Assembly: GCF_000313135.1 (NCBI RefSeq)
Contig: NW_004457329.1
Coordinates: forward strand, 122,180-186,179
Length of the DNA stretch: 64,000 nt
DNA from: Acanthamoeba castellanii str. Neff
Taxonomy: Eukaryota; Discosea; Longamoebia; Acanthamoebidae
Direction of reading: 5' to 3'
This document shows positions 52,472-61,248 of the stretch, piece after piece. The notes under the pieces are model-generated. The model did no database searches, was not told the origin of the DNA, and was given only the letters and a program-made list of their open reading frames with translations. How positions within the stretch are numbered: position 1 is the stretch's first letter; each line of letters opens with the position of its first letter. The translations under genes were made by a program, and so were the position numbers.

Positions 52472-54401
52472 ATGCAGAAGGACACGCGAACGACTGCGCA
52501 CGGCAGGATTCAGAAGGATCTGCGTGAAGTAAATGACAAGCTAAATCCTGATAGTCCTCCGATTTTTGCTCTGCCTGTTGGCGATTCGCTGGACCATGTT
52601 GATGCGCTCATCATGGGACCGCCCGAGACGCCGTACTCGTTCGGCTTCTTTAGATTTGGTGCGGCACTCCATCTTCCCAGCTGCTTTTTCTCCAAATTGA
52701 CTTTCCATCGTCGTGCAGACATGCAGTTCCCTTCCACCTACCCCAACACGCCGCCCAAGGTCCTCATGTACGAGCTGCACCTGCTCTACGCAGCCATCTT
52801 TGCGCGCACTCATCCCTGTGTGTGGCTTTCCGCAATCTAGCACCACGACCAACGGCGGGCGCACCAGATTCAACCCGAATCTGTACGCAGGAGGGAAAGG
52901 TATTCATCCATGCCAACGCAGCACAGTTCACAGGAGCTATGGCCTCACCACCTTCATCCGCGCAGTGTGCCTTAGCATCCTGGGCACCTGGTCAGGCGAG
53001 TCCGAGGACGAGTGGCGGTCCTCGTACTCCATCAACTACGTACTGAGCGCCATCCAGAGCCTGATCATGACGGCCAAGCCTTATCACAACGAACCTGGCT
53101 ACGAAGAGGTAACACGCTTGCTCTTGCTCCCTCTGCTGACTGCTGAAGTGCAGTGCTGACCCACCTTACATCTTGGCCAGGGAGGAGAGCATGACAACCC
53201 TGAGGAGATCAACGCTTACTCGGACAAGATCACCCACGAGGTGATGCGAATTGCCGTCTGCGGCATGGTGGAGGACGCCATCCTCGGCAGGAACGAACGT
53301 ATATGTCCACATCACGTCGCTGTTGCCTTTTACCATTTGTTGACCTGACCACCCCTCCTTCGCTTTGTTCAATGGACAGCCTGGAATGAGCTGATCAAGC
53401 ACCAGTTCCTGCTTTGGTTCGACAACTACCTCAGCACCGCAGAGCGGGAGCTTGCTCGAGGGCTCGAGGGCCAAGAGTTCCGCCCTATGCCCTTTGAGGT
53501 ACGCTCTCTACATGCCTTTGCGCCGTAACGAGCGTGACCAAGAGGCTCACGCTCATCCGCCTTCTCTTCTCACAGTTTGACGGCAACACCGCTGCGGGCA
53601 AGTACAACTACACCAACATCATCGCGCGGCTCAAGGATCTCAAATCCAGGATCGATCGAGAGACCGAGGAATGGAAGGAAAAGGGCAAAGGTACAAAAAA
53701 CGGCGCATGTGTCCACTTCACTTCCGCTTGAGTCGAGCTGACCGTGGCTTGGCGCGATGGCACGCAGTCTTCACCAAGAAGGAGACTGGCTGGAAGTACT
53801 ATCAGCTCATGGAAGAGGCCGAGAAGTTCAAATCGGGCAAGGTGACGCTCGAGGGCGTGAGCGCTGCACCCGTGGAAGATGACAACCTCTACCACTGGCA
53901 GGCCTCCATCTTCGGTCCCGACGGCTCTCCATGGGAAGGTGTGTACCTCTCGCCCACTTTCACTTGCCTCTTGCGCACCAAGGGCTGACACATCCCAATT
54001 CCCCTGACCATTGACCAGGCGGCTTCTACAACGTGGACATCATCTTCAGCGAAGATGAAGCCCCACCTCGCGTCCGCTTCATCACTGAGATGTTCCACCC
54101 TCATGGTACGTTCAAGACCCTGGCTCTCTTCCTCGCTCCTGGATGACACCAACACACCTATGCTGCAGTGACGAGCGACGGCATCCCGTTCTACCTGGTC
54201 GCACCGGCCAGACGAGGCCTGGTAGCGACCATTCTCACGGCCATCATCAAGCTGCTCAAGGCCAATCCCAACCCAAGCCCTGCCACGTGGGCCAACGTCC
54301 AAGCGGCCAAGATGTACTTCTCCAACGACGATGAGGTCAAGAAGGAGTACCGGAAGAAGGTCGCTCGCCTCGTCAGGAAGAGTGTCGAGGGTGACGAATA
54401 A
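52472..54401 (+). CDS. Tandem UBC (E2-like) protein: UBE2Z-like domain plus Cys-less UBC
   Basis: The ATG at 52472 opens [20 protein letters not shown]. The first UBC domain has [34 protein letters not shown] and, across an intron, [20 protein letters not shown], with the catalytic Cys in the HPN-like context. [20 protein letters not shown] and [10 protein letters not shown] follow. This resembles UBE2Z/UBE2O-type E2s. A helical linker leads to a second UBC domain (about 53765-54400): [39 protein letters not shown] and [15 protein letters not shown]. Where an active E2 has DGxICLD, this copy has DGIPFYL, so the catalytic Cys is missing and the domain is UEV-like. It likely conjugates ubiquitin or a ubiquitin-like protein through domain 1, with domain 2 as a binding module. 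About ten exons. Confidence 0.82.
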
Positions 54402-54928: not shown

Positions 54929-57900
54929 ATGGCATCCCGAGTTTCCGGCCGGATGAGGAAGATTTCGGATGAGACCCAGCAGATGGTGAATGCATGGCTG
55001 TCGGTGGATTGGGACCCGGAGAGCCGCGAGCACGTCAAGGGGCTGGTGGCGGCGGGCAAAGAGGAGGAGCTCGTGGCGCACCTCGGCCGACGCATCTCCT
55101 TCGGCACGGCCGGCCTGCGCGGCAAGATGAAGTGGGGGTTCGCCTTCATGAACGCCGTGACCGTCACCCAGGCCTCGCAGGGCCTCTGCGCCTACCTCCG
55201 CACGGTCCACCCGTGCCTGACAGACCTCAGGGAGCGGGGCGTCATCGTCGGACACGACGGCCGCTACAACTCTCGCATGTTCGCACGCCTCACCGCCGCC
55301 GTATTCCTCTCGCGCAAGATTAAGGTCCGTCTTTGATTGCTTCTCCTCATTCTTCCCGATTTCGATCGCTCTCTCAAATGGACGGCTTTGTAATGATTAC
55401 CCAAATCTTTTGCGCGAAAGCACCAGAGATGACTAAACACAAAACGGAACGCAATGATTTATTTATTTTTTTCTTCTGATATTTTGATACACATTAATAA
55501 GTTAATAAATAATTCTAAAATCAAATGTGACACGCGCGCAGGTGCACCTGTTCAGGGACGACGTGCCGACGCCGTTGGTGGCGTTTGGCGTGCGCCACCT
55601 CAAGTGTGCGGCGGGCGTGATGGTGACGGCCTCGCACAACCCGAAGGAGGACAACGGCTACAAGGTCTACTGGGCCAACAGCGCGCAGATCACCGCCCCG
55701 CACGACGCGCAGATCGCGCGGGCGATCGAGGCCAACTTCAGCATCTGGGACCGAATGCCCGACGACAAGGCCATCGATGAGCACCCCCTGTGTCTCGACC
55801 CCACCACCGACGTGTGCGCGGCCTACCTCGCCGCCGCCCGGCACTGGAGCTTCCGCACTCCGCAGCAGAACGCCGCCGCGCAGCTCCGCGTGGTCTACAC
55901 CGCCATGCACGGCGTCGGCGGGCAGAGCGTGGAGCGCATCTTCGACGCGTTCGGCCTGCCGCCGGTCATCGCCGTGCGCGAGCAGCACGACCCCGACCCC
56001 GACTTCACCACGGTCGAGTTCCCCAACCCGGAGGAGGCCAACGGGTGCAGCCTGCGGCTGGCCATGTCCACGGCCGACCGCGAGGGCGCGCCGCTCATTC
56101 TGGCCAACGACCCCGACGCCGACCGGCTGGCCGTGGCCGAGCGGCAGCGGGACTCGGGCGAGTGGCGCATCCTCGACGGCAACGAGATCGCGCTGCTGCT
56201 GGCCGACTGGCTGTGGCGCAACTACACCGAGCGCCACCCGGAGGTGGACCGCGCCAAGATCGTGATGCTCAACAGCACGGTCTCGTCGAAGGCCCTGGCG
56301 GCGATGGCGGCGAAGGAGGGCTTCCACTACCGCGAGACGCTGACCGGGTTCAAGTGGCTGGGCAACCTGGCCGACGAGCTCGTCCGCGCGGGCTACACGT
56401 TCCTCTTCGCCTACGAGGTCGAGATCGGCTTCATGATCGGCGACATGAGCCTCGACACCGACGGCGTGCGCGCCGCGCCCGTGTTCGTCGAGATGGCCAA
56501 CCACCTCTACGAGCGCGGCCTCACCCTCTCCGACCACCTCGACAATCTCTACCACAAGGTGACCACCCCCTCTTCGCTCTTGCTCTTCGTTCTTCGTTCT
56601 TCGCTCTTTTCGTTAATCAACCCTAAACATCAACATTTCAGTATGGCTATTACAAGATGGCGGTGGGGTACTACTTCTGCCACGACCCGAGGCTGATGGA
56701 CCAGATCTTCAACGAGATCCGCAACGACGGCCTCTACATCAGCACCTGCGGCGACCACAAGGTCCAGTACGTGCGCGACCTCACCACCGGGTTCGACAAC
56801 AGCCAGCCCCACAACCGGGCCGTGCTCCCGGTGTCGAGCGCGGCCCACATGATCACCTTCACCTTCGAGAACGAGTGCGTAGCCACCTTCCGGGGCAGCG
56901 GCACCGAGCCCAAGCTCAAGTACTACATCGAGGTGGCCAACGCCTCCAATGAGCAGCTCGCCACCGACCTCCTCGATAGCATGAAGCAGGAGATCATCGA
57001 TCGATTCCTGCAGCCCAGCCAAAACGGGCTCCGCCCGCCCGCCGCGGCCGAGGACGCGCACAACAGCCCCCACAACAGCGGCAACAGCCCCGAGCAGATG
57101 GCCCCGGCCCGCATCGCGCGCGACGTGATCCACAAGGAGATCCAGGCGCTGCAGAACCTGGAGGCCACCCTGGGCCGCGACTTTGAGAAGGTGGTGGAGA
57201 TCATCGAGAGCCGCGGCTCCGGGCGCGTCATCTTCACCGGCGTCGGCAAGTCAGGTACCGACCAACCCCCGGTGTGTGTGTGTTGTGTGTGTGTGTGGCC
57301 TGACGCTTGCGGTTTGCCATTCGATCGATAGGCATCATCGCACAGAAGATCAGCGCGTCGTTCTCGTCGCTGGGCATCTCGTCGTTCTTCGTGCACGCCA
57401 CTGAGGCGGCCCACGGCGATCTGGGTGTCATCACCGCCGAGGACGTCATCATCGCCATCTCCAACTCGGGCAACACGCCCGAGCTCATCTTCATCATCCC
57501 CTCTCTGCGGGTACCTTCCTCTTCATGCACTGGCACCGTATCCGTCGTGTTGTGCTAACCAGCGATCTCACACGCACGCACACACGCACACGCACACACA
57601 CGCACACACACACACACAGGTGCTGGCGGGAAAGATCATCGGCATCACGAGCAACAAGGACAGCCTGCTGGCGCGGTACTCGGACGCGTCGATCATCACG
57701 GGCAAGATCATGGAGGCCGACCAGCACAAGATCGCGCCCACGGCGAGCACCATCGTGTGCCTGGCCATCGGCGACGCGCTGGCCGTCACCCTCTCGGCCC
57801 GCATGAAGTTCACTCTGCCCGAGTTCGGCCTCCGGCACCCGGGCGGGGTGCTGGGCGAGAAGGTGCTGGGCAAGGTATTCCAGGAATTCGCGATGAAGGG

Positions 57901-59481
57901 CCAGGGCCGCTTCCTGCGCTTCTGGAAGCGCATGACCAACGAGGAGCGCGACAAGCTGCGGCGCGACTTTGAGCGCATCGACCTGGCCGAGCTGAGCCGG
58001 ATCTACCTCCAGTGCCGATCGAAGGCCGAGAAGGGCGCGATCGACCCGCACTCGCTCGAGCCGCTGCCATCACACACGTGGGTGAAGCTGCACGAGAGCG
58101 ACCCGGCGGCGGTGGCGGCCTGGCGAGACGCCGGCCTGCGCGCCCTCCGCGAGGGCAAGATCGGGGTGGTGCTCATGGCCGGCGGGCAGGCCACGCGGCT
58201 CGGCATGACCATGCCCAAGGGCTTCCTCGACCTCAACCTGCCCTCGCACAAGTCCCTCTACCAGCTCCACGCCGAGAAGCTGCTGCGGCTGCAGGACGAG
58301 GTCCGGCAGACGTTCGGCGGCGGCGGCGGCGACGAGGAGGTGCAGCAGCAGCAGCAGCAGATCCAGATCCCGTTCTACGTGATGACGAGCCCCGAGGCGC
58401 TGCAGCAGACGCACCAGTTCTTCATCAAGCACCAGTTCTTCGGGCTGTGCCCCAAGCAGGTCTTCTTCTTCAAGCAGCGGTCGCTCCCGTGCGTGGCGCC
58501 CTCGGGCGAGATCATCATGGACACCAAGTGCTCCGTCGTCTTCTCGCCCGACGGCCACGGCGGCCTCTTCGTCGCGCTCAAGGACGCTAAGGCATACGAG
58601 GTTCGTGCCACACACAAACACACACACACACACACACACAACACGCCCTCGCTAATACGCGTGTGCGCACACACACCGCAGGACATGAAGCGACGAGGGG
58701 TGGAGTACGTCTTCGCGTTCGGCGTCGACAACCCGCTCTGCGAGGTGGCCGATCCGGCCTACATGGGCTACTGCATCCAGCGCAACGTCAAGATGGGCTA
58801 CAAGGTCGTCGACCGGCGAGGTACCTACACCACCCTCCACGTGGTGTGTCGTTGGTCGTTGTCGTCGCTCATATGTTTGATTGTTTGGTGCGAACAGATC
58901 CGCAGGAGACGGCGGGCGTGGTGTGCGTGCGGGACGGGGTGATCAACTGCGTGGAGTACTCGGAGCTGCCCGAGTCGGTGGCTGAGCTGCGGGACGAGCA
59001 GTCGGGTGAGCTGGTCTACAACGCGGCCAACATGCTCAACCTGTTCTTCACCCTGCGGTTCATGCGCAAGATCGCCGACAACCCGTCGCTCATGGAGTAC
59101 CACCTGGCCAAGAAGCGGATCCCGTTCGTCAACGACAACGGCGTGCGGACCGAGCCGCTCGTGCCCAACGGGTGGAAGTTCGAGAAGTACCTGGTCGACT
59201 GCACGCCCTACGCCAACAACTCGGTGGCCGTCATGTTCGTGAAGCGGGAGGAAGAGTTCGCTCCCATCAAGAACGGCTGGAACAGCGAGGTCGATTCGCC
59301 CCGATCGGCGCGACGCCTGTTGGCCGCCCACTACCGACGACGCATCGAGCGCGCCGGCGGCAAGCTCGCGGCCGACGACCCGGACAAGATGGTCGAGGTC
59401 TCGCCGCTCGTCACCGACCGCAAGCTCGCGCAGCTCCTCCAGGACAAGCACCTCGTCACCGGCCCCGCCGTCCTCCAATAG
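54929..59481 (+). CDS. Trifunctional fusion: PGM2-type sugar-phosphate mutase, KdsD-like SIS isomerase, UAP-type pyrophosphorylase
   Basis: Domain 1 (about 54929-57040) is a PGM2-type phosphopentomutase/phosphoglucomutase. It has FGTAGLRGKMKWG, catalytic-Ser TASHNPKEDNGYKVYW, metal loop LANDPDADRLAVAE, FAYEVEIGFMIG and phosphate loop FRGSGTEPKLKYY. Domain 2 (about 57100-57880) is a SIS isomerase: VIFTGVGKSGIIAQKI, EAAHGDLGVI, IAISNSGNTPE, APTASTIVCLAIGDALAV and FGLRHPGGVLGEK, the pattern of arabinose-5-phosphate isomerase KdsD without its CBS pair. Domain 3 (about 57960-59481) is UAP-like: VVLMAGGQATRLG, MPKGFLDLNLPSHKSLYQ, FSPDGHGGLF, FGVDNPLCEVADPAYMGY and CVEYSELPE. Domains 1 and 2 share one exon (about 56642-57253) and domains 2 and 3 another (57620-58600), so the fusion is not an exon-prediction artefact. 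The first intron is 55325-55541. The protein should be cytosolic. Confidence 0.92.
57573..57619 (+). repeat. Intronic CA-rich simple repeat
   Basis: CACACG/CA repeats fill the intron that splits the SIS domain and end at the AG before VLAGKIIGITSNKD. Confidence 0.9.
58607..58641 (+). repeat. Intronic CA repeat
   Basis: A CACACA run lies in the intron between KDAKAYE and DMKRRGVEYVF of the UAP-like domain. Confidence 0.88.
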
Positions 59482-59529: not shown

Positions 59530-61248
59530 TCAAGAACGTGCGAGGGCGAAGGAGTGACAGCCACCGCAGCAAACGTCAATCATGACATCGGAGGAGGAGG
59601 AGGAGGCTGGGGTGGGCGAATGCCGGTCGTGCTCATGGCCTACGCCGAGGTTGCCATGCTCGTTCCATCCCCAGCTGAACAGCTGCCCGCCGGCCAGCAG
59701 GAGCGTGTGTTCACATCCGCACACGATCTTGTCGATGGGGGCGTCGTTCCACGCTTCAGAGGGAATGCGCGTCGGTCGTGGTCGGTCCGTCGTGTCGCCC
59801 AGGCCCAGCTGCCCGTAGTTGTTCCTTCCCAACCCGAAGAGGCTGCTCCCATCATCTACATCACGACGCATTCCATGAGAGATGATGTAGACAACAAGGT
59901 GGTGGTCGTACCTGCGACGATCAGTGTGAAGCTCCAGCCGCACACGATTTTGCTGACCTTGTTGGCCGGGACATCGACCGGTTGCGGGGTGGAGTGGCAC
60001 GTCTCGCCTCGCCTGTGCCGCGTGCCCCTGATGATCATCCGCGGCTTCGGCTTGCTGCTGCTGGTCGGCGGCACGCCGCCTGCTGCGCCTTGGCCAGGCG
60101 AGGCAACAGTAGACGTGGTTGGTCGAGTGGTGGCCTGGTGGGGTGACTGCGCTGAGTCTGCGCCAATTCCAAGCTGGCCGTGCGAGTTATCGCCCCAGGC
60201 AAACACGGACCCCTCATCTACGCGCAGGCCATGACCTTAGTACCCGCTGCAGGTCGACTGTGATTGAAGGGGATTGAGGGGGAAGGAGGGGTACGCACCT
60301 GTAAGGCACACGGTGTGCTTTTGCCCGCACGCCACCTGCGCTACGCGTAGGCGCGATTCAGCCAAATGGGCGACCAGGGTCGGAGTGGAACGCGTGGCCA
60401 GGTCGCCATGTCCGAGCTCTCCGAACTTGCCATGCCCCAACGTCAGCAGGTGTCCCTCCTCTGCGTGCATGTGGCGTGTGCGGTGGTGCGTGCGTGCGTG
60501 CGTGTGGCGTGTGCGGTGGTCAGCAAGCGCACGATGGGGATCGATCGGGCAGAGGCGGCGCACGTGTGACGAGAGCGGAATGGCGCATGCCCGCAGCGAT
60601 GCACGTCACCACGATCGAGCTATGGAGCCCTGCCATGGGCGCAGGAACCAGCCTGCGCTTCACCAACTGCTGCTGCGACCGCGCCGCTTCCTCCTCAGTC
60701 CCAGCTGCATCCTCCTCTTCGTAGAGGCACCCCATCTGGTTGAAGCCAGACGAGCCCCAACATAGCACCTTGCCGCTCGCTGCAGTGACTACTGTGAGCA
60801 CCACCAGCAGGCCTGGGTAGAACGGTCGAGGAATAGAAGTTGCGCGCACCGGCCAAGGCGAGCGAGTGGCTCCACCCGGCGGCCACCTGGACCACTGTCT
60901 CTGGTAGCACTACGCGCTGGGGCGTGGGCTGGTCACGGCAGGGTGCCCCGAGCCCAAGCCGTCCGTCATCGCCGCAGCCCCACGCCCACACGTCGCCCTC
61001 ATCTGTGCGCTCGCGCAGTGTGAGGCCAGCACCACCAGGGGTCCTTAAGCGTCAGCTTGAAGTGGTCGGAGGCCCGTACGGGTGAGTCCCAGGGTGTGGG
61101 TGGGGCCGCCCACCAGGGTCCGCAGCTGCCCAGCGCCCGTTGGGAGCGGAGGAAGCCGGCACGGCAGGGAATGGTCTGCAGTGGTGCCCAGGCCAAGTTG
61201 CCCGCTGCCTCCGCTGCCCCACGCCCACCAGCTGCCCCCGTGCTCCAT
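59530..61248 (-). CDS. RCC1-repeat beta-propeller protein
   Basis: The ATG at 61248 opens MEHGGSWWAWGSGGSGQLGL. Exons give successive RCC1 repeats with the W-G-x-G-x-x-G-Q-L-G core and a C-x-x-x-H-(S/T) turn: DVWAWGCGDDGRLGLGA, KVLCWGSSGFNQMGC, LLTLGHGKFGELGHGD, SVFAWGDNSHGQLGIGAD, SSLFGLGRNNYGQLGLGD and QLFSWGWNEHGNLGVGH. Turns such as AAGWSHSLALAG, ACGQKHTVCLT and CGCEHTLLLAG follow each. The protein ends HSFALARS, stop at 59530. Six or seven repeats make one propeller without other domains. RCC1-like proteins include the Ran exchange factor and SERGEF; nothing here marks it as Ran-specific. It is convergent with the trifunctional gene, with 48 bases between their stop codons. Confidence 0.87.

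Follow-up and report, generated by a model that had tools for sequence, protein, structure and literature searches.

What can a cell make when a phosphosugar mutase, a sugar-phosphate isomerase and a pyrophosphorylase of sugar-nucleotide metabolism are joined on one polypeptide chain? This question is raised by a gene of Acanthamoeba castellanii str. Neff located at positions 54929-59481 (forward strand) of a 64,000-nucleotide stretch of contig NW_004457329.1 (NCBI RefSeq assembly GCF_000313135.1, positions 122,180 to 186,179; hereafter the window). A single open frame of the gene encodes three complete domains, a PGM2-type mutase, a SIS isomerase of the KdsD/GutQ type and a UAP-type pyrophosphorylase, and the catalytic motifs are kept in each of them. 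None of the three families is new in itself; the novelty lies in how they are combined and in the changed sugar pockets. On the basis of sequence comparisons, we favor, at somewhat short of even confidence, a three-step enzyme that would make a UDP-pentofuranose, most likely UDP-D-arabinofuranose.

One reading frame with three domains

The seven exons of the gene join into a spliced frame of 3909 nt that is translated into 1302 residues and whose sole stop is terminal. Their borders were predicted by eye from the open frame and from homology; all six introns are of the GT-AG type, with sizes of 77-217 nt, and the start codon is the first ATG downstream of the preceding in-frame stop. Pfam places PGM_PMM_I, II and III within residues 56-472 of the protein, SIS at 664-791 and UDPGP at 870-1234 (E values from 4.6e-10 to 1.9e-38). 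Exon 1 (54929-55324) encodes residues 1-132 and the start of the mutase (PGM_PMM_I), and exon 2 (55542-56558) encodes residues 133-471, including the motifs TASHNP (161-166) and DPDADR (322-327) and the sugar loop YEVEIG (423-428). Exon 3 (56642-57254; residues 472-676) carries the end of the mutase (GSGTEPK, 556-562), a linker (approximately residues 600-627) and the start of the SIS domain (GVGKSG, 671-676), while exon 4 (57332-57510; residues 676-735) carries the SIS core (HATEAAHGDLG, 697-707; SNSGNTPE, 719-726). The remainder of the SIS domain (MEAD; HPGG, 808-811) and the first half of the UAP-type domain (GGQATRLGMTMPK, 923-935; PDGHGG, 1045-1050) are both encoded by exon 5 (57620-58600; residues 736-1062). 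The UAP-type domain continues through exon 6 (58682-58820; residues 1063-1109) into exon 7 (58898-59481; residues 1109-1302 and the stop), which contributes the sugar pocket (E1128, Y1129, N1153, L1157, Y1206, V1208, K1233) and the C terminus. Because the motifs flanking each junction share one exon (GSGTEPK and GVGKSG in exon 3 for mutase-isomerase, HPGG and GGQATRLGMTMPK in exon 5 for isomerase-pyrophosphorylase), both junctions are independent of intron prediction. A first-pass annotation of this DNA had described three domains in a single frame, with both junctions inside uninterrupted exons; these statements, together with the order, the coordinates and the three families that it had given, agree throughout with the spliced frame and with the Pfam, NCBIfam and structure matches.

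When residues 560-1300 were searched against about 5.8 billion proteins, with scoring of the 7995 candidates that had the most words in common with the query, no second protein with the order PGM-SIS-UDPGP was revealed. The sole match at E <= 0.001 was P0001, a metagenomic protein of 996 residues in which UDPGP is followed by PGM and SIS is lacking. Near records may be missing from this search, since the fusion protein was itself not returned, and absence of the architecture elsewhere is thus not proven. Two scans of viral contigs with a few short peptide patterns did not reveal a relative, and no such enzyme was found in the literature on the fused architecture, on a eukaryotic isomerase or on D-arabinofuranose, where coverage of subscription journals is thin. 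The first-pass annotation, which knew of no described enzyme of this order, is in line with both the protein search and the literature.

Single domains were also used as queries. The isomerase search yielded P0002 (178 residues; 83% over 64% of the query), whose similarity to the fusion ends at HPG, and the pyrophosphorylase search yielded the metagenomic P0122 (339 residues; 84% identity over 50% of the query), whose similarity begins at GGVLGEKVLGKVFQEFAMKGQGRFLRFWK. A single frame of P0122 covers the last part of the SIS domain and continues into the UAP domain, so that on this side the SIS-UAP junction is seen to be kept. Both sequences come from JGI data and each lies on one 16,429-base contig, which we infer to be the same one.

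Sugar pockets and family positions of the domains

By descent, the third domain is a UAP, as had been annotated. Its structure matches to UAP/AGX proteins range from 4e-95 to 8.6e-54, whereas those to UGPases and USP are at 6.4e-10 or weaker, and in a tree rooted at the midpoint it falls within a clade of 32 of the 124 rows, the named members of which are fungi and animals (support 0.984), with P0124 as its sister (support 0.997). The signature GGQATRLGMTMPK fits the GGXXTXXGXXXPK motif given for UAP in the available text of PMC9332809, and the catalytic positions G110, G111, R115, K122, D253, E303, Y304 and K407 are kept (AGX residue numbers, transferred through the 1vm8 alignment with an offset of 12). 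Signature motif, catalytic positions and clade are hence common to the fusion and to eukaryotic UAP1/AGX1 (1vm8, 1jv1, 8qh2); the difference lies in the pocket. Contacts to the N-acetyl group are ascribed to Asn223, Glu303, His331, Phe381 and Phe383 in the accessible part of PMC3610160, and the fusion alters four of these five (N223H, H331L, F381Y, F383V), so that only E303 is kept. In each of the 28 other rows of the clade (P0122, P0124 and the stand-alone copy from the same genome were set aside), positions 223/303/331/381/383 read N/E/H/F/F, and V383 occurs in none of the 120 homologs that have a letter at this position. P0124 reads H, E, L, F, L; P0122 has H223 and ends short of the remaining pocket positions. 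The stand-alone UAP, encoded on contig C235, reads N, E, N, F, F, with H replacing N at 327 (blocks joined by hand).

Given these residues, the third domain appears to be a UAP copy in which the N-acetyl pocket has been rebuilt stepwise. P0124 itself, a EukProt sequence, has the pocket altered in part (H223, L331, L383) and has an N-terminal DUF4517 match. Because the N-acetyl pocket is altered, the label "UAP-type" stands for descent and should not be taken to mean UDP-N-acetylglucosamine (UDP-GlcNAc) synthesis. As a mark of new specificity, H223 alone was considered and dropped, since it is carried by 77 of the 121 homologs; outside the UAP clade it is found in 75 of 92 rows (F383 in 92 of 92, F381 in 91 of 92). 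The unusual part is the H/L/Y/V combination. Mutation of AGX1 at 381 or 383 reportedly changes its substrates. Both positions have been mutated by others, according to the part of PMC7276986 at hand.

The first domain was compared with the 41 bacterial genomes that belong to 41 of 80 bacterial SIS loci examined. Thirteen full-length matches at E <= 1.2e-66 were found in 11 genomes, the next best match being at 1.3e-22, and an alignment of 594 columns with a presumed human PGM2 sequence shows 48.0% identity. These two results bear out the earlier assignment of the mutase to the PGM2 type, with the proviso that the label of the bacterial group was itself given through the same presumed human sequence. 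The presumed human PGM2 and the bacterial mutases resemble the fusion over their full length and share with it the loops for the catalytic serine (TASHNP), the metal (DPDADR) and the phosphate (GSGTEPK). They differ from it in the sugar loop, which reads YEVEIG in the fusion (V425, E426), xEES[YF]G in ten of ten extracted bacterial relatives (EES[YF]G likewise in P0001) and FEEAIG in the presumed human PGM2; the bacterial count leaves out L121, from which no sequence was extracted, and two matches without a locus. Of the 94 columns invariant in nine bacterial rows (L111-L119) and P0001, 25 differ in the fusion. Since many of these departures are shared with the presumed human PGM2, we limit the argument to loop positions 425 and 426. 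The PGM2 subfamily includes phosphopentomutases, and PGM2-type enzymes use several sugars.

For the SIS domain, the structure matches are led by two single-domain phosphosugar isomerases, 5uqi (8.2e-46; the alignment spans 23-209 of 218 query residues) and 3etn (4.5e-36), followed by the E. coli arabinose-5-phosphate isomerase 2xhz (1.3e-31), while the Pfam SIS match has an E value of 1e-20. NCBIfam ranks KdsD first (1.4e-47), kpsF second and GutQ third. Its matches stop at profile positions 159-206, short of the CBS part, and the C-terminal CBS pair (PF00571) was not found in the fusion protein by Pfam; 29 of the 118 listed SIS relatives (P0004-P0121) are likewise shorter than 230 residues. 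The annotation as a KdsD-like isomerase thus holds for the best matches, and it does not extend to the KdsD cut-off or to the CBS part. Family columns are well kept: one of the 45 columns invariant in 14 relatives differs (G to A at 679), and so does one of the 40 columns with conservation of 95% or more in a set of 119 (T to I at 780). The motifs GKSG, HGDLG, SNSG, EAD and HPGG are common to the fusion, 5uqi, 3etn and the KdsD/GutQ family, from which the fusion SIS differs in being eukaryotic, in sitting between two other enzymes and in having no CBS pair. In a tree of 121 sequences, best matches only, it groups with P0002 (support 1.0) and then with P0003 (support 0.974), a free-standing KdsD-type SIS isomerase from a eukaryotic transcriptome in EukProt. 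Two of the bacterial loci, L036 and L039, are Gram-positive; by eye, each has a single-domain KdsD-type isomerase beside a ribokinase-like gene and also carries an RbsD/FucU-like gene. They resemble sugar-uptake or sugar-use loci, and the L039 mutase resembles GlmM.

Candidate products of the fusion enzyme

In the proposed route, the SIS domain would convert D-ribulose-5-phosphate into D-arabinose-5-phosphate, the PGM2-type mutase would shift the phosphate to yield D-arabinofuranose-1-phosphate, and the UAP-derived domain with its rebuilt pocket would combine the latter with UTP to form UDP-D-arabinofuranose. Substrates, reaction order, product and any channelling are what we infer from the three families. 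The most specific version, a trifunctional UDP-D-arabinofuranose synthase that starts from a pentose-phosphate intermediate and includes a dedicated eukaryotic arabinose-5-phosphate isomerase (API), is put forward tentatively and regarded as less likely than not. The phosphopentomutase of Bacillus cereus belongs to another mutase family. With this enzyme and an API, an in vitro cascade from ribulose-5-phosphate through arabinose-5-phosphate to arabinose-1-phosphate has been set up, as described in the accessible text of PMC11591822. Arabinose, its D or L form unstated, is among the monosaccharides detected when glycoproteins of A. castellanii and giant viruses were examined as a set, and the available part of the same source names arabinose as a recognized component of glycans of the amoebal host and mentions a pentose on amoebal N-glycans (PMC12866637). 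In the literature on D-arabinofuranose, nothing was found for a UDP-D-arabinofuranose donor.

Searches of the A. castellanii genome itself covered 38.4 Mb on 250 contigs. Much stronger UDPGP matches, which we take as UGPases, are present on contigs C100, C148 and C152. With the mutase domain as the query, no second mutase of the fusion type came up apart from a fragment on C102 (E 0.096); the other mutase is of the PGM1 type, on C130. Outside the fusion, SIS matched a fragment that carries the GFAT signature. No KDO8P synthase was found in this genome (9 of the 14 prokaryotic control genomes were matched, 4 of them above the cut-off), so that arabinose-5-phosphate is left with no evident outlet to 3-deoxy-D-manno-octulosonate (Kdo). 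A Kdo role for the fusion isomerase, tested through this enzyme, was rejected on this search.

Several observations weigh against UDP-D-arabinofuranose. GFAT can also form arabinose-5-phosphate, according to the accessible text of PMC11301363; given the GFAT-like SIS fragment in this genome, the cell would not strictly require a dedicated isomerase. The SIS domain scores below the curated NCBIfam cut-offs (162.6 of 505 bits for KdsD, 160.7 of 203.7 for kpsF, 139.9 of 481 for GutQ), and the closest NCBIfam model for the mutase is Arch_GlmM (123.6 bits; cut-off 439). The altered mutase loop points to a different specificity and does not thereby indicate arabinose. H223 is common among homologs, and changes at 327 and 331 are found in the stand-alone UAP of this genome as well. 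Finally, in the neighborhoods of the 80 bacterial SIS loci a UAP-type gene lies near none, a PGM-type gene near three (L036, L039, L103), and the set of all three was not seen.

The product could instead be UDP-glucose or a relative, with the mutase, and perhaps the isomerase, feeding glucose-1-phosphate or another plain hexose-1-phosphate to the third domain. Fusions of UGP and PGM exist (available text of PMC2173943), and loss of the N-acetyl pocket suits plain hexoses too. P0001 is a further precedent, its UAP-type UDPGP domain (H223) sharing a chain with a mutase alignable with the PGM2 type; it differs from the fusion in the reverse order, in the lack of SIS and in keeping F381, F383 and the EES loop, and the best NCBIfam model for its mutase is Arch_GlmM. 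We regard a UDP-hexose as unlikely, if worth serious consideration, because three other contigs carry strong UDPGP matches and C130 a PGM1-type gene, because such a route offers no obvious role for a KdsD-type isomerase, and because the mutase loop departs from the EES of ten of ten bacterial relatives.

Alternatively, the mutase might act on GlcNAc-6-phosphate and the third domain on GlcNAc-1-phosphate, replacing AGM1 and leaving the isomerase with an upstream or side role. The third domain does belong to the UAP clade of fungi and animals, and no phosphoacetylglucosamine mutase of the AGM1/PGM3 family was detected in the genome with PF21405, PF21404 or a presumed human PGM3 sequence. The two Pfam models matched nothing in the prokaryotic controls either and carry little weight alone; the sole match of the PGM3 sequence was the active-site stretch of the fusion itself (E 0.014). 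Since UAP needs GlcNAc-1-phosphate and no AGM1 was detected, the fusion mutase is a candidate supplier, which is one more point against arabinofuranose; AGM1 may be absent from the assembly, missed by an exon-by-exon search or replaced. The altered N-acetyl contacts, with a V383 seen in no homolog, and a separate UAP that keeps N223, F381 and F383 render synthesis of UDP-GlcNAc by the fusion rather unlikely.

It is improbable that the three enzymes form no linear route at all, being fused for co-regulation or scaffolding, or that they act on a different pentose, for instance ribose. Substrates are assigned here by homology alone and PGM2-type enzymes accept several sugars, but a diverged relative retains the SIS-UAP junction and the pockets of two of the three domains are changed. 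That adjacent genes have been read as one and are processed into separate proteins is very improbable, in view of junctions that lie within uninterrupted exons, the single terminal stop and the same SIS-UAP junction in P0122.

Introns 4 (57511-57619) and 5 (58601-58681) of the fusion gene contain CA-rich short repeats. Upstream, the gene is neighbored by a stretch at 53581-54401 (+), with a weak match to ubiquitin-conjugating enzymes under the Pfam cut-off, and downstream by RCC1 repeats on the opposite strand (59856-60909, -).

The fusion among known systems

If UDP-D-arabinofuranose is indeed the product, the donor of D-arabinofuranose would be made straight from a pentose-phosphate intermediate by one eukaryotic enzyme. 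A KdsD-type isomerase, a mutase of a type able to use pentoses and a re-pocketed uridylyltransferase would then make up one D-arabinose route that is testable with one protein. The fusion may be relevant to the arabinose and pentose described for glycans of amoebae, and it provides an example of a UAP copy that appears to have switched its sugar. Where eukaryotes obtain D-arabinose is a matter of debate. In the accessible text, Iljazi et al. 2024 (PMC11301363) describe as unknown how eukaryotes get from glucose to this sugar, state that the D-arabinose-forming enzymes of prokaryotes lack obvious eukaryotic homologs, and put GFAT forward as the isomerase. A general statement that eukaryotic homologs are lacking would be too strong, because plants share the Kdo pathway including API, as stated in the available part of PMC9614988.

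The same part of that source describes a predicted Kdo route with API fusions in CroV and Fadolivirus (PMC9614988). As in the A. castellanii fusion, an API-like domain is joined in CroV crov265 to another enzyme of sugar metabolism; its partner is a Kdo-8P phosphatase, unlike those found here, and the amoebal genome yielded no KDO8P synthase. The UGP/PGM fusion proteins of diatoms and Phytophthora, two domains on one chain in the accessible text of PMC2173943, offer another comparison, and UDP-glucose production has been proposed for the fusions of diatoms and oomycetes. They, too, combine a UDP-sugar pyrophosphorylase and a phosphoglucomutase for consecutive reactions on one chain. They differ in having two domains without SIS and a pyrophosphorylase named for UDP-glucose, whereas the A. 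castellanii protein has three domains, with PGM first and SIS between the other two.

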